Shown one piece after another: positions 2,188 to 12,792 of a stretch of DNA of 36,520 nt. The stretch comes from Anaerolineae bacterium (GTDB lineage Bacteria; Chloroflexota; Anaerolineae; Anaerolineales; Villigracilaceae), in assembly GCA_018648655.1 (NCBI GenBank), contig JABGQV010000089.1, positions 1 through 36,520 on the forward strand. Reading direction: 5' to 3'. The position numbers were made by a program, and so were the translations under genes. Position 1 is the first letter of the stretch; each line of letters opens with the position of its first letter. Below the pieces are notes generated by a model that saw only the letters and a list, made by a program, of their open reading frames with translations, was not told the origin of the DNA and made no database searches.

Positions 2188-4095
2188 ATGGTTATGATGA
2201 AAAAGAAGTATTGGTTTGCTTTTATTTTATTGATTGTATTTTCCTTTCAAGCTTGCCAGCCTCTAGAGCCTGTTCCTGATGAGCCTATACCTTTGCCAGC
2301 GACAGAGATTGTTGATGTGCCCAAAGAAGAGACCGTTGAAGAGGTTGTCGAGGAAAAACCCTCGGTAGTTTTGATTTCTTGGGATGGCTCTCGCGCAGAT
2401 TTAGTGCACGACTTGATGGACGAAGGCTTAATGCCTAATTTTGCATCGGTTGCCGATGCCGGCGTGCGCGCGGAATATGCGCAGAGTATTGATCCATCCT
2501 TAACTGCTGCGGCGCATAACAGCATGTCATCTGGTTCTTTCCCAACGCATACGGGGATTACATCGAATAGCTTTCACGTTGTTGGAGATGACTTTTATTG
2601 GTATCGCAAAGGTTTTGACGAAGTAATGACCGATGCCGAGCCAATTTGGGTGACCGCATCAAAAAACGGATTAACAACTGCATCCGTCTTCTTTGTAGGT
2701 GGCTCACCTTCTCATGAGGGGCAATTGGCCGATTATACAGTAGGCTATGGTCTAAGCGATGCTTATTCGAAACAGGTGAATGTCTCTCTCAGCCCCACTG
2801 ATGGGTGGAGTGATGCACCAGAGTCTTATAGCCCTGCCCTAGAAGGAAAATTTACTATTCAGAATGTGGGCAAAGTTTTTCTCTATGTTTTCGATTCAAC
2901 GGATGATTCTACTGAAAATTACGATACCGTTATTTTGAATACCGAAAATGCTACTACCGATACAGCGAAGACACTTAAACAAAATGAGTGGGCTTCGCTG
3001 ATTTTGCTTAAGCGTGCTTTTTCTGGTGGGGATTTTCTTATTCAGGATATTAGCTCTGAAAAAGTAAAAATTTATCATACAGGCATTTACAGAAACAATA
3101 TCGCACCTAAAGAATTGCTAGATGCTATTAATGAGAAATTTGGTGCCTTCCCGGCCGGGGCCGATTCTTATGCACTCGGCGATGGGTGGATTACGCCAGA
3201 AGATAACCTTTATTTGCTTGAAATGCAATCTGTATATATGGCAGAAGTTGCAGCATGGGTTTATGAAAGTTATCAACCAGATTTGATGCTCACTTGGCAA
3301 GACCCTTTCGATTCGGCTGGGCATCAGTTTTTAATGGTAGATGAACGCCAGTTGAATTATTCACCAGAATTAGCCGAAGCTTATAGAGAAAACTATATCC
3401 GTGCAGCCCAAATAGCTGATAGTTCTCTGGGCATTATGCTCGATGCTTTTGATCTTGAAAAAATTACGCTTATGATTGGCGGCGATCATGGTATGGCGCC
3501 TATTCACTCACGGGTTTATCTTAATACTCTTCTCGAAAATGCAGGCTTACTTACACTCGATAGTAAAAATTATGTTGTACTCGAAGAAAGCAAGGCCTTT
3601 GCGATTTGTTCTGGTGGCGCCGTACACGTTTATATTAACCTTGAAGGGCGCGAAACAGGCGGTATCGTTCCTGAAAGCGAACTCCCTGCTATTCGAGATG
3701 AGATTATGGGACTCTTTGAAAACTTGACCGATCCCGAGACCGATGAGCTTATCTTCCAGCGTGTATTGCCTCGCGAATCACTCGCTGACCTTGGGCTTGT
3801 TTCCGCTAATTCTGGCGATATTTTCGCCCAAGCAGTTCCTGGCTACCACCTCGACGGCTGGCGCGGCAACGATGAAGTTTTTGCTCCAGCAGATTTTTAT
3901 GGTCAACATGGTTATGACAGCACCATTCCTGAAATGCACACAATTTTCCTTGCAGCGGGCGTAAATGTTTTTGATGTTGGTGAAATTATCTCGCCCGTCC
4001 ATATCGTAGATTATGCCCCGACCATTGCTGAAATTCTTGGCTTTGAACCTGCGCCTAATACAGACGGGAAAATTATCCCCGCATTGGTAAAATAA
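2188..4095 (+). CDS. Alkaline-phosphatase-superfamily phosphodiesterase/nucleotide pyrophosphatase-like lipoprotein
   Basis: Lipobox-like FSFQAC; VVLISWDGSRADLV and IGGDHGMAPIHSRVYLN metal-site style motifs. Confidence 0.78.
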   Translation: MVMMKKKYWFAFILLIVFSFQACQPLEPVPDEPIPLPATEIVDVPKEETVEEVVEEKPSVVLISWDGSRADLVHDLMDEGLMPNFASVADAGVRAEYAQSIDPSLTAAAHNSMSSGSFPTHTGITSNSFHVVGDDFYWYRKGFDEVMTDAEPIWVTASKNGLTTASVFFVGGSPSHEGQLADYTVGYGLSDAYSKQVNVSLSPTDGWSDAPESYSPALEGKFTIQNVGKVFLYVFDSTDDSTENYDTVILNTENATTDTAKTLKQNEWASLILLKRAFSGGDFLIQDISSEKVKIYHTGIYRNNIAPKELLDAINEKFGAFPAGADSYALGDGWITPEDNLYLLEMQSVYMAEVAAWVYESYQPDLMLTWQDPFDSAGHQFLMVDERQLNYSPELAEAYRENYIRAAQIADSSLGIMLDAFDLEKITLMIGGDHGMAPIHSRVYLNTLLENAGLLTLDSKNYVVLEESKAFAICSGGAVHVYINLEGRETGGIVPESELPAIRDEIMGLFENLTDPETDELIFQRVLPRESLADLGLVSANSGDIFAQAVPGYHLDGWRGNDEVFAPADFYGQHGYDSTIPEMHTIFLAAGVNVFDVGEIISPVHIVDYAPTIAEILGFEPAPNTDGKIIPALVK

Positions 4096-4989: not shown

Positions 4990-6684
4990 GTGAGTCTGTC
5001 TGATATTTTCTCCCCACTAAAAAAACGTTTATCAACTTGGCTCACCCCACGCCGTCTGCGGGGCTGGCGTGAGAACCTGACAGCCTATTTGATGATTGGC
5101 CCAGCTGTATCGTTGATTTTTCTTTTCGGCATTTTCCCTGTCGGATTTGCTTTATTTGTTAGCTTACATAAATGGAGGCTCAAGCGCGGGGATATTATTG
5201 GGCTAGTCAATTACACCAAAGCGATTGGCCCATTAGCCTATTTACTGATTTTTGTACTAGGAGTAGGCTTACTCTTTTTAGCATTCAGACAACTCCAGCG
5301 TAACTATAAAGAATTTGAAGGCCGACCCTTACGTTTCTGGATATTCAATATCCCTGGCGTATTATTGGCATCCGCAGGGTTGAGCTTTGTCAACTGGACA
5401 GTGGTTTTACTCCCAAATATTTTGGATATTGCAGACAAGATTAGAGGTGTAGAAAAAACCCGGGAGCTTTTTGTCCAGCTATTAGGCGAAGCCTTTAGCG
5501 CCCCGCTTGTTTTGACCGCACGTGGCATCATGTTTGGGGTTGTGTTGGCGGCCTTAATTGCTGTCTCTATCGCATTCTATTTTTGGCGAACGCTAGAAGA
5601 TATTCAACATCAATTCTCGTTAGCTGCAGCTTGGTTATTAGCAGGTGCTGGCGCAATCGTCTTGCAGTATGTATATGGCCAGATGATGCTTGCTTATACT
5701 CTTGCTATGCAAACAGGAGAAGACCCGGGCATTTTGCCGCAGATTGTTAGTATTTCAAGCGGCGTGATCTTACTCTTTATTGGTTGGAAACTTTGGCAAA
5801 AGGGAAGCGAGCAGGAAAGTATGGCGCTCTTTTCTTTTAGAATATTCGGCGCAATGGTCTTTATCGTTGGTGGCTGGATTATGATCGGGGAATTACCTAT
5901 CATCGTTGCTGCTGGTGACCCCGATTTGTGGGTAGGGTTAAAAGCGACTCTCTTCTATTCGCTCGGTACAATTCCCTTCCAATTAGGGATTTCGATTTTC
6001 CTTGCGGTCTTGCTCTTCCAAAACCTAAAAGGCTCTGCCTTCTTTCGCATGATGTTCTTCATGCCCTACGTTACACCTACTGTTGCAAGTGCAGCTGTTT
6101 TCCGACAACTTTTCTCAAATCGTCAGCAAGCGCCTATCAACGCGGGGATGAAGCTTCTTGGCATGGAGCCCTTGCAATGGCTGTGGGAGCCAAAAGGCAT
6201 TCTGCGTTTGATGGCTAATAATGCTGGAATTGAAAATTGGCCTGCCTGGGCTGATGGACCCAGCTTGGCATTGGGTGTCGTTATTATCTATTCTATTTGG
6301 GTTTTCGTTGGCTATAACACAGTGATTTATTTGGCTGGTCTTGGCAATATCTCTAAAGAAGTTGGCGAAGCGGCTGAAGTAGATGGCGCAAGTCGTTGGC
6401 AAATATTCCGTCATATCACCTTCCCCCTTCTTTCACCAACTACCTATTTCCTAACTCTAATCTCGGTTATTGGTACATTTAAAGCCTTCAATCACATTTG
6501 GATCATGCGTCTCGAAGCATCTCTTGGTACAGCCGATACTTTTAGTGTCGTCATTTTTACAGAATTCTTCGAGAAATTGCGCTATGGTTACGCCTCGGCA
6601 ATGGCATTTATTCTTTTTGCCATTATTCTTGGGTTAACATTTGTCAATAATAAAATTCAGGGATCGCGAGTTTTCTATGGATAA
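4990..6684 (+). CDS. Sugar-type ABC transporter permease (MalF-like), enlarged
   Basis: C-terminal half carries the canonical permease EAA-type loop ([27 protein letters not shown]); N-terminal half has extra hydrophobic segments. Confidence 0.85.
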
Positions 6685-9201: not shown

Positions 9202-10464
9202 TTACTTATGCACATCTGCCGCAATAACAGATAGCCCGCGCTCAGTAAGTTGCCAAGCTGTTTTATTGAGTGCTTCAAATTTATCCATGAAGTTGATCTC
9301 AAGCGCATCCATATCGCCAGCTTCATTGATTTCATCTTTAGCACGGAAATATTCGAGAATGTCCGATGGATGCTCACGCGCGCCATCAACTTCTGGGTCG
9401 CCACCTTCGTGTTTCGCAGAGATATTGGCAACGTGGTCGGCGAGTTCAAGCAATTCGTCACGCCGATTATAGGGCTGGATGACGATATGCTTGAAGGTCT
9501 CGGTAATATGGTGCTCAAAGCGAACAATATCTTCAAAGCCAAGTTCTTTGCGGAACTGGGCGGTAATTTCCATCGTTTTGTTATTGGTTGAGTTGCCCCA
9601 GTTGAAGCCAATCAGAGGCGTCGTTCCATCTTCGCGGGCAAAAAGTTTTGCGCCGAGAAGTGTCCAGAGTGCACCATAAGGATTATCGTTGCCCATGAAA
9701 ACCGAGATTTTGAATTCGTTATCTACGCCGATTTTGTGGAGCATATAGGCAAGAAAAATGGTGCCAGGGTTGATATTGAGCACCTGTTTTACGCCGTAGC
9801 GTGTGTAATAATAGAGAAATTCATCAATCCATTTTAAGGCGTGGCTATTGGGTTGTCCGATGCCGCCAAAATAACCCGTAATTGTTTCAGGACCGCCAAG
9901 ATGGATATTTGAGCCATCCGTGCCTTTCGTGTCGAGCGTTTCGACGTAGGTCGCGCCGACGATCTGCATCCCAGCTGCGAAGGCGACTAAATCCCCGTCA
10001 TCTTCCTGTTCTTTCATATTGCGAACGCGGATGAAACGGCCAGGCATCAACTTGCCCTCGTCGATTGAGCGTTTTGCGGCAGTAATCAACCACGGGAAAT
10101 ACTGGCAAGCAGAGATTTCAAGGGTTACAGCAAAATCATCTTTAAATTCTGTTGAATTGGCTTTTGCACTCAAAACTTTTTCTTTATAGGCATCAACGGT
10201 GATAAATGCGCCAGCATCACGTTGCTCTTGAAGCCATTTTAGACCTTCGAGATATTCGGGTTTAACTTCTGCTACTTTTGCAAGCAAATTCTCAAGTTTA
10301 CGGGCTTCATTGGCTTTAGCATTGATTTCTTCAGGAGTGCCGTATTTGGCTACAACTTCCAGAAAATCGTTAATTACTTGCTCGTCAGGATTAAGCAAAA
10401 CAGCGTTAATTTCATCAAGGCGTGTGGCAGGGATTTTCAAGAGCTCACGTAAATCTTGGGTCAT
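9202..10464 (-). CDS. Conserved-looking protein of unknown function, 420 aa
   Basis: Long ORF with protein-like composition and convergent terminator; no family recognised by eye. Confidence 0.75.
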   Translation of the reverse strand: MTQDLRELLKIPATRLDEINAVLLNPDEQVINDFLEVVAKYGTPEEINAKANEARKLENLLAKVAEVKPEYLEGLKWLQEQRDAGAFITVDAYKEKVLSAKANSTEFKDDFAVTLEISACQYFPWLITAAKRSIDEGKLMPGRFIRVRNMKEQEDDGDLVAFAAGMQIVGATYVETLDTKGTDGSNIHLGGPETITGYFGGIGQPNSHALKWIDEFLYYYTRYGVKQVLNINPGTIFLAYMLHKIGVDNEFKISVFMGNDNPYGALWTLLGAKLFAREDGTTPLIGFNWGNSTNNKTMEITAQFRKELGFEDIVRFEHHITETFKHIVIQPYNRRDELLELADHVANISAKHEGGDPEVDGAREHPSDILEYFRAKDEINEAGDMDALEINFMDKFEALNKTAWQLTERGLSVIAADVHK

Positions 10465-10582
10465 TTTTTTTCTCCGATTGGTGAATAAGGGTATTTAGAG
10501 TATAGAATATTGAGGGGGAATTCGCAAGTAAAAATGCAATAAATTGGAGATGTAATAAAAAAATCCAGCCCACGAGACTGAA

Positions 10583-10621
10583 TTTTAGAGCGGGTGAACG
10601 AATTCAAACCGTCGAATGCTA
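10583..10621. repeat. Displaced tRNA-Gly 3' fragment (att-like direct repeat, distal copy)
   Basis: ttttagagcgggtgaacgaattcaaaccgtcgaatgcta versus ttttagagcgggtgaacggattcgaaccgtcgaatgcta at 11524-11562. Confidence 0.85.
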
Positions 10622-10679
10622 ACTATAGGTATGTATGCGACATGTGGAGAAAAGTAGGTTGGCGATAATCAGCAGAAGA

Positions 10680-11378
10680 TTATTCCAGCAAGCCGATACC
10701 AGTCATGGCTTGCTGGAACAGCGCGTATAGGCGCGCTGCCGTAGTTTGATCGATGGACATATTTGTAATGATGCCAATTATGGTTGATACAGAGACACCC
10801 TTCCAGTCAAATTTGTTTAGCCTATCCAAAGAGTTACCTAGGTAATCTAACCTTTCTTTGATGAATTCAAGATCTTCCTTAACTGGTTTTAATTCTTCTT
10901 CAAGAATACGGCTATATTCTGACAGCGATACCCGTATCTGTTCTTTTTCAGGCTCTGTAAATTTCTTGAAATCTTCTTTAGTGAATGATTTAGTGGAGAG
11001 CATTGGCTGGGCAAGCTGTAGCTCTTCCCATTCATCCAGAGCCGTTAGCTCGAAATATTGCTTTATATTATAAGAAAGCCACCGGCGAAACAATTTAGAA
11101 ACACCATCTATATTCTTGTTGCTTACACTTGGCATTCTATTTTTCGAAAGAGGAAAATCTGGCTTGATTTCAGAATAAAAAACACTAAAGTGTGTGCCCA
11201 TTTCATAGATGGTTCTTTGTTCGACTATAAATATTAATGGCGTATCAAGTATTTCAATTGCATATTTGAAGCCATTCGTTTTTGTTCTGAACTTAGAAAG
11301 TGGAAGGTTGGAGTTTTTTGCAACTTCTAATAGGGTGTTTTTATAAGAGTTGTAAAAACTATTTACGTCTGGTGGCAT
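10680..11378 (-). CDS. Orphan cargo protein, 232 aa, unknown function, with coiled-coil-like segment and hydrophobic C-terminus
   Basis: Only substantial ORF inside the tRNA-flanked segment. C-terminal part reads EELKPVKEDLEFIKERLDYLGNSLDRLNKFDWKGVSVSTIIGIITNMSIDQTTAARLYALFQQAMTGIGLLE. Confidence 0.7.
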   Translation of the reverse strand: MPPDVNSFYNSYKNTLLEVAKNSNLPLSKFRTKTNGFKYAIEILDTPLIFIVEQRTIYEMGTHFSVFYSEIKPDFPLSKNRMPSVSNKNIDGVSKLFRRWLSYNIKQYFELTALDEWEELQLAQPMLSTKSFTKEDFKKFTEPEKEQIRVSLSEYSRILEEELKPVKEDLEFIKERLDYLGNSLDRLNKFDWKGVSVSTIIGIITNMSIDQTTAARLYALFQQAMTGIGLLE

Positions 11379-11529
11379 AACTATTTTCCTTCCTTGATGA
11401 CTTCACACCGAATAAGCTGACTTTTACTTTTTGTGGCGTGGTACGATCGATGAGTGGATAGGAGACGACAGATAAGTGGAGATATTCTTTTAGATTCTCC
11501 CCGAAACAAAAGTAGTATTGAAGTTTTAG

Positions 11530-11601
11530 AGCGGGTGAACGGATTCGAACCGTCGAATGCTAGCTTGGGAAGCTAGTGCCTTACCACTTGGCGACACCCG
11601 C
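11530..11601 (-). tRNA. tRNA-Gly (anticodon CCC)
   Basis: Reverse complement folds as a cloverleaf: GCGGGTG acceptor paired with CACCCGC; anticodon arm CTAGC-TTCCCAA-GCTAG; T-arm GACGG-TTCGAAT-CCGTT; no encoded CCA. Confidence 0.93.
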
Positions 11602-11676
11602 ATATTTTGAAGCTTAGGCTTTTCCCCGATAACCCCCAAATTATAGCACTTGAAAAATCAGTGTCAAGCATATTTT

Positions 11677-12003
11677 TCAGGGATGCGCTTCAAAGCAAGT
11701 TACGCCCTGTGAGTTAACCACTGCGCTGTGAACTGTATTTTTGGGTAATTCGAGCCTGTCACCTGCGTGGAGGGTGATGTTTTCATCTGTGTCGGGAAAA
11801 ATGAAGGTGATGGAGCCGCGCACTACGTAAAGAATCTTATCGTGGGTATGGAAATGGGGCGCGTAGAGATCGTTGGGTGAATTCGACCACGGATAATAAC
11901 TCAAGTTTTCAGCGTGCAGGATTTGAGCTATCGCCTCTTCTGTGGGCACTTTGGAATTCGTCCAGTGAATTATATTTAGTTTACTGAGATTTGCTTTTGG
12001 CAT
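11677..12003 (-). CDS. Small cupin-domain protein
   Basis: Cupin-style HFHTHDKILYVVRGSITFIFPDTDENITLHAGDRLELPKNTVHSA. Confidence 0.82.
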   Translation of the reverse strand: MPKANLSKLNIIHWTNSKVPTEEAIAQILHAENLSYYPWSNSPNDLYAPHFHTHDKILYVVRGSITFIFPDTDENITLHAGDRLELPKNTVHSAVVNSQGVTCFEAHP

Positions 12004-12016
12004 TAAGTATTATCCT

Positions 12017-12595
12017 TTAATCTAGAATTTCAAAGGAGTTGAGGTAGGCTTCAATCTCATCAGATAAAGCCCACGGAAGCGGGTATTTTATATAGATCAG
12101 ATAGATACGGTTGTAAATTTTATAGACTCGTCCTTCTATAAGATTGGGATGCACTTCACCTTGTCTTCCGTCAGATTCTCGGATTCTAAATTTGCGACCT
12201 AAATGACCGTCAAAAGCAATATCTTCATTGATAACTATGGTGCCGCCTTCAGAAATGAGATTGTTTTGAAATTCGTTTAGAAGATAATCGGTATAATAAT
12301 TAATATATTCTTCTGAGTATTTTTCATATGATAGAAAATAGGTGAAGTGCTTATCTCTTGAGATAAATATGTGGGTATTTCCAGACTTCTTTTCAGAGGG
12401 TAGCTCAGGCATCAAAATGGTGAAATTTCCGTTTTCTGAGATATAAGGCTCCCAACCAAATCGTTTTTCAGCACTTCTTAAATCTATTGTTGTTACCAGA
12501 AAATATATTATTAAGATAATAATGGGAAGCACTATTATGGAAATAATAATTTTGAAGAAAAATTTTGCAGGATCGAGAGTTTTTTTATTTTCCAT
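12017..12595 (-). CDS. Membrane-anchored protein of unknown function, 192 aa
   Basis: N-terminal transmembrane segment followed by a soluble domain; lies between a cupin gene and its truncated duplicate. Confidence 0.65.
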   Translation of the reverse strand: MENKKTLDPAKFFFKIIISIIVLPIIILIIYFLVTTIDLRSAEKRFGWEPYISENGNFTILMPELPSEKKSGNTHIFISRDKHFTYFLSYEKYSEEYINYYTDYLLNEFQNNLISEGGTIVINEDIAFDGHLGRKFRIRESDGRQGEVHPNLIEGRVYKIYNRIYLIYIKYPLPWALSDEIEAYLNSFEILD

Positions 12596-12633
12596 AAGAT
12601 ATTATGTGATTTAGGTATTATCTGTTTCGGGAC

Positions 12634-12792
12634 TTAAGCGTGAAAGTGGGGTGCGTAGAGGTCGTTGGGAGAATTTGAACAAGGATAATAACTCAAGTTT
12701 TCGGCGCGCAAAATTTGTGCTATAGACTCTTCTGTAGGCGCTTTGGAGTTCGCCCAGCGAATGATATTTAGTTTAAGGTTTTCTTTGCACAT
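12634..12792 (-). pseudogene. Truncated duplicate of the cupin gene
   Basis: Reads MCKENLKLNIIRWANSKAPTEESIAQILRAENLSYYPCSNSPNDLYAPHFHA*, nearly colinear with MPKANLSKLNIIHWTNSKVPTEEAIAQILHAENLSYYPWSNSPNDLYAPHFHTHDK; stops in the cupin His motif. Confidence 0.85.

Follow-up and report, generated by a model that had tools for sequence, protein, structure and literature searches.

A small integrase-less insert at tRNA-Gly(CCC) in an Anaerolineae genome and a phage integrase family that shares its attachment core

Additive flexible genomic islands are built from cassettes inserted at tRNA genes and carry partial tRNA repeats, and they have been described at tRNA-Lys in Methylophilaceae (PMC10872708), in Ca. 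Actinomarinales (PMC7771536) and in Alteromonas (PMC4119200). The locus reported here resembles them in its conserved tRNA target, in the partial tRNA direct repeat at its far end, in its variable cargo and in its size, such islands ranging from 330 bp and a single CDS upwards. It differs from them in its setting (Anaerolineae-type MAGs, tRNA-Gly(CCC)), in holding a single cassette between the tRNA and its terminator, and in having a matching phage attP and integrase family. The insert abuts the 3′ end of the conserved tRNA, bears a 3′ repeat at its far end, and is replaced by different cargo or by an empty layout in related genomes. Judged against the open-access literature searched, it belongs to the tRNA-targeted additive islands already described; what is new is the phage family sharing the att core, the placement of the cargo between tRNA and terminator, and the newly mapped hotspot.

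Other known systems match less well. Tycheposons combine a tyrosine recombinase with cargo at tRNA genes over 4-200 kb, whereas the present insert measures 0.94 kb and has no recombinase, and the integrase, replication and phage-interference genes of phage satellites (PICI, P4-like) are all absent between its repeats. Compared with an integrative element of the tyrosine-integrase type, it has no integrase of its own, but the core of its attL and attR is that of an integrase-linked attP. Prophages at tRNA-Gly(CCC), known here from viral contigs, resemble the insert in their core, the tRNA 3′ half, and in a gene on the tRNA strand that ends shortly before it; unlike them, the insert has neither an integrase nor a recognised phage gene nor a recognisable arm motif. 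Integrase-lacking hotspots of horizontal transfer that are kept by homologous recombination (PMC5635113) show a similar turnover of genes at a fixed locus without mobility genes, but the edge here is a precise tRNA 3′ repeat. In tRNA-dependent lysogeny (PMC10865867), an element integrates at a tRNA and the resident tRNA is lost or replaced, a situation reminiscent of one sister genome below (G005), whereas in our sequence the tRNA is reconstituted and the insert contains no other tRNA gene.

The tRNA-Gly(CCC) locus and its displaced 3′ copy

The stretch of DNA analysed, hereafter the window, is 36,520 nt long and forms contig C68 of a MAG (G000) of 225 contigs that is 85% complete with 4.6% estimated contamination. 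Its features around the tRNA are as follows.

9202..10464, minus strand: conserved downstream gene of 420 aa, the chromosomal neighbour of the site
10560..10586, minus strand: displaced original tRNA terminator, a 12-pair stem and U tract, homologous to the hairpin directly 3′ of the tRNA in G008
10583..10624, minus strand: attR-like displaced copy of the tRNA 3′ part, 39/42 identical
10680..11378, minus strand: cargo gene of 232 aa, in the same direction as the tRNA, its stop codon ~56 nt before the displaced core
11524..11565, minus strand: attL-like copy, comprising the tRNA 3′ part and ~7 nt of flank
11529..11601, minus strand: intact tRNA-Gly(CCC) (ARAGORN; Rfam RF00005)
11640..11667, minus strand: tRNA promoter, perfect TTGACA-16-TATAAT with TG ahead of the -10 box (12/12 match)
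11677..12003, minus strand: cupin gene upstream of the tRNA, likewise in G002
12641..12790, minus strand: second, truncated copy of the cupin gene (5′ part), at the place of the G002 cupin

An earlier note on this DNA, made from the letters alone, had placed an intact tRNA-Gly at 11530-11601 on the minus strand, and ARAGORN reports tRNA-Gly(CCC) there, at 11529-11601. The note had also described a 39-bp repeat with two mismatches; the repeat and its 941-bp spacing are real, as are the two mismatches in the T arm, but its length is 42 nt (10583-10624 against 11524-11565) and it holds three mismatches in all (93% identity). Beginning with the 3′ strand of the anticodon stem, it covers the T arm and the acceptor and extends ~7 nt beyond the tRNA. 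By chance, this 42-mer is matched at no more than 22/42 positions in the rest of the window and at best at 22-24/42 across ten Markov-shuffled windows. Beside the displaced copy in the window, no tRNA 5′ half was detectable (p = 0.07).

A scan of the whole MAG found the 32-nt core at these two places only, and no third copy was found in any of nine genomes of the genus. Its few occurrences among related genomes lie every time at tRNA-Gly(CCC) or at a displaced copy of it. A scan of 82 tRNA genes (those of G000 and G002 and parts of those of G003 and G008) for displaced 3′ copies within ~10 kb yielded two, both at tRNA-Gly(CCC), one in the window and one in G002, and none at the 80 others.

As a separate observation, about six of the 29 tRNA genes in the window's own genome lie at or a few bases from a contig end (C223, C217, C95, C37, C5 and C62), which is above chance; this crowding may reflect strain variation at tRNAs or tRNA sequence shared between loci.

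The same site in sister genomes

In G008, contig C153 starts inside the tRNA, and past the tRNA 3′ end come a terminator and the 420-aa gene also present in the window; contig C85 supplies the remainder of the tRNA, the two overlapping by 24 nt within it. From this we infer an empty-site layout across the contig break, with the tRNA followed directly by terminator and 420-aa gene, as the earlier note had expected of relatives. The G008 terminator is homologous to the one behind the displaced copy in the window (CTCTAAAATCCAGTC versus CTCTAAAATTCAGTC). Because the flank and terminator that accompany the displaced copy are homologous to those of G008, this copy is best read as the original end of the tRNA.

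Three other sister genomes carry different genes at the site. G002, which has the same cupin upstream of its tRNA as the window, shows the intact tRNA, two other genes (286 and 137 aa), a 47-nt displaced copy (96% identity, 1.5 kb away) and a strong hairpin, and so provides the other cargo between repeats of the same kind that the earlier note had suggested looking for. In G003 a 196-aa gene and a TMEM260-like gene come after the tRNA, and no displaced tRNA copy was found there. The G005 site, assembled from two contigs overlapping by 55 nt, begins with another type of tRNA-Gly(CCC) and its own terminator, followed by a gene ~70% similar in DNA to the TMEM260-like gene of G003, a 27-nt tRNA remnant, a terminator and the 420-aa gene. 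Within this locus (L030) the genus-type tRNA has been replaced by a 70%-identical tRNA-Gly(CCC) at 1888-1960, and the 3′ remnant of the old tRNA at 3766-3792 is identical to the tRNA of this genus. Since the inserts of the window, G002, G003 and G005 differ, the site holds different genes in sister species, and in all four the cargo is co-directional with the tRNA. In G002, G005 and G008 the tRNA, or what is left of it, adjoins the 420-aa gene.

Were the displaced copy a degraded tRNA left over from an ancient tandem array or a duplication, the 232-aa gene would be merely an intergenic neighbour. Something of this kind is seen in another family of the order, where G279 (locus L211) has degenerate near-full-length copies of tRNA-Gly(CCC) at 3693-3742 and 6245-6286, 3.3 and 5.8 kb downstream of the intact gene and with other genes between, possibly as successive insertions. 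In the window, G002 and G005, however, the displaced copies comprise the 3′ part only, with sharp edges and ending within the tRNA 3′ half, and a full-length degenerate tRNA is not supported in any of them; moreover, the window's displaced copy carries the tRNA terminator as in the G008 layout, and the cargo varies between species. We consider decay of an array very improbable, and the independent degenerate array that the earlier note had named as a refutation is not supported here, where no 5′ half was detectable and the 80 other tRNA genes scanned show no copies. Among 20 tRNA-Gly(CCC) loci across the order, G279 stood out for its two degenerate copies and G196, also from another family, for a different integrase ~90 bp downstream of the tRNA.

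A chimera or misassembly of the MAG joining unrelated contigs at the tRNA might be suspected from the estimated contamination (4.6%) and from how often tRNAs fall at contig ends in this MAG. Nevertheless, a single 36.5-kb contig spans the two repeats together with both flanks, the 420-aa gene neighbours the tRNA, or what remains of it, in G002, G005 and G008, the cupin is upstream in G002 too, and the repeat copies differ at three positions; an assembly artefact is extremely improbable.

Phage integrases, the cupin side and the origin of the insert

Scanning viral contigs with a 24-nt core gave one match, IMGVR_UViG_3300005985_000030, in which GACGGTTCGAATCCGTTCACCCGC occurs exactly within a tRNA-Gly(CCC) 3′ half that matches the tRNA of this genus over 25 nt. 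This contig has no complete tRNA there but only the anticodon arm, T arm and 3′ strand of the acceptor, and ~40 nt upstream of the core a tyrosine integrase gene (PF00589, 6e-28) ends in its stop codon. Relatives of the integrase (58-83% identity) on other viral contigs show the same arrangement with other tRNA-Gly(CCC) variants. A degenerate pattern search returned 20 stretches. In 16 of them this integrase lies to the tRNA 5′ side, in some cases cut off by the end of the stretch. At least 15 viral contigs have a tyrosine integrase stop codon just upstream of a tRNA-Gly(CCC) 3′ half, as an attP, and one contig shows a natural attL, its complete tRNA continuing into a right flank of phage type. 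One IMG/VR contig, 3300021090_000015 (among family loci L231-L256), contains two integrase-attP units. The att core led to an integrase family on viral contigs, as the earlier note had hoped, but to none in the nine genus genomes, where the integrase loci examined include no close relative of the phage integrase (at most 26% identity).

These phages have as their att core the segment that is duplicated in the window, G002 and G005, and because a phage attP matches the genus tRNA over 25 nt, the duplicated segment of the window appears to be a real integrase target. Integration is preferred as the best explanation since the duplicated segment equals the phage att core: we think it probable, at roughly 60%, that the insert is a small integrase-less island that arose by integration at the tRNA-Gly(CCC) 3′ half. 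The 3′ half would serve as attB for the tyrosine integrases of a phage family, and an element whose attP bears the same 3′ half would have recombined there, leaving the host with a working tRNA (attL) and moving the original 3′ end and terminator ~0.94 kb downstream (attR). Between attL and attR a single gene without an integrase would have remained. Most likely, the insert derives either from a larger element that was deleted down or from a small attP-bearing cassette served by an integrase in trans. The earlier note had read the locus as integration at a tRNA 3′ end, and the empty layout in G008, the other cargo in G002 and the integrase-linked phage attP all favour that reading.

Several observations count against it. 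The inserts lack integrases, and no third core copy exists in the nine genus genomes. The wholly different tRNA of G005 could not be produced by 3′-half integration alone. The window flank lacks the conserved GTTGTTAAGGT-like motif that follows the phage attPs on their right, and the cupin gene beside the tRNA is part-duplicated. On that side, the window has (12017-12790, minus strand) a 5′ cupin fragment, then an AT-rich gene of 192 aa (orf192), then the complete cupin. The orf192 gene has 33% GC and no match in eight sister genomes. The fragment is 82.7% identical to the G002 cupin, and the complete cupin is 84% identical to the fragment; a foreign origin for the full cupin as opposed to the fragment was set aside, their identities to the G002 cupin (79% against 83%) not being decisive. 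The cupin/orf192 arrangement is a second one-gene insertion with partial duplication, this time without a tRNA. Together with the whole-tRNA difference in G005, the cupin duplication points to homologous or illegitimate recombination at the locus, either alone or after integration.

Recombination alone would take the form of homologous import, in which donor DNA from a related lineage, with its own tRNA, cupin and neighbouring gene, recombined in the shared core and was joined illegitimately at its far end, leaving the truncated 3′ end of the resident tRNA with no integrase involved. The truncated resident cupin fragment, orf192 and the complete cupin would then show this pattern again across the tRNA, the tRNA of G005 was replaced whole, and hotspots that lack integrases and have recombining flanks are frequent (PMC5635113). 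No mosaic signal was seen in the prenyl synthase upstream in G005. All three displaced copies, however, end in the tRNA 3′ half, the very segment carried by the phage attPs, and no such copy occurs at the other tRNAs scanned; import is a possible but somewhat unlikely origin of the insert.

The cargo gene and its place in the tRNA transcription unit

The 232-aa cargo gene is the sole sizeable ORF between the repeat copies, and analyses of ORFs and Pfam domains agree with the earlier note that no integrase accompanies it. The ORF lacks PF00589, its protein family shows no invariant R..HxxR..Y pattern, and no integrase or integrase relic was found in the inserts of the window, G002, G003 or G005. 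The ORF has 37.5% GC against 44% for the window. The protein has no Pfam match above the cut-off and no significant PHROG match; a match to the Isochorismatase family was dropped (E 0.012, below the cut-off). Its AlphaFold model (pLDDT 82, pTM 0.47) has no PDB or viral fold match at E ≤ 0.001.

The gene is not the orphan it had been taken for. Relatives occur on a Desulfosporosinus plasmid, at ten loci in GTDB genomes, one of them in G008 at another locus (55% identity), and on two viral contigs with terminase genes nearby. Elsewhere the neighbours of these relatives include a CBASS-type cyclase and SduA, a type II methyltransferase and a type IIG enzyme, and a PD-T4-1 homologue. In a Pedobacter locus (L126, 2731-6628), a relative has an oligonucleotide cyclase of CBASS type on one side and SduA (Shedu) on the other. 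From the association with such neighbours we would guess that the gene is a candidate for a role in phage conflict, in defence or counter-defence.

A candidate shared element end adjoining the tRNA in the window and G002 (CTTTTTGTTTYGGGG) was dropped as being at shuffle level, and a motif search yielded nothing useful.

The insert is part of the tRNA transcription unit, with the tRNA promoter on one side and the displaced terminator on the other. The promoter at 11667-11640 is a perfect extended -10 sigma-70 promoter, and the 12/12 match is also found upstream of the tRNA in G002 and G003. No promoter-like site or stable hairpin was found between tRNA and cargo in the window, and the first terminator-like site past the cargo on the tRNA strand is the displaced one at 10586-10560; beyond it, the 420-aa gene has a promoter-like site of its own at 10527-10499. 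G002 shows the same arrangement of promoter, cargo and terminator. Because the insert lies between the tRNA promoter and terminator, with neither a promoter nor a terminator ahead of the gene, the sequence suggests that the cargo is probably transcribed by read-through from the tRNA promoter. A more far-reaching reading, which we hold to be doubtful, is that tRNA-Gly(CCC) acts as a promoter-trap docking site at which phage integrases acting in trans place single-gene cassettes between tRNA and terminator, to be expressed from the tRNA promoter. If true, this would amount to integron-like logic without an integron, each new cassette coming under a strong tRNA promoter.

The locus pairs a minimal, well-bounded, integrase-less tRNA insert with a phage integrase family of the same att core. 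One attB, one attP and one integrase would suffice for a direct test of how integrase-less islands arrive at tRNA genes. The family of the cargo protein is uncharacterised; its members turn up on a plasmid and on phage-like contigs, as well as next to genes of CBASS, Shedu and restriction systems, and it is a candidate for a function in phage conflict. The position of the cargo between tRNA and terminator suggests a use for such sites, as a ready promoter for captured genes.
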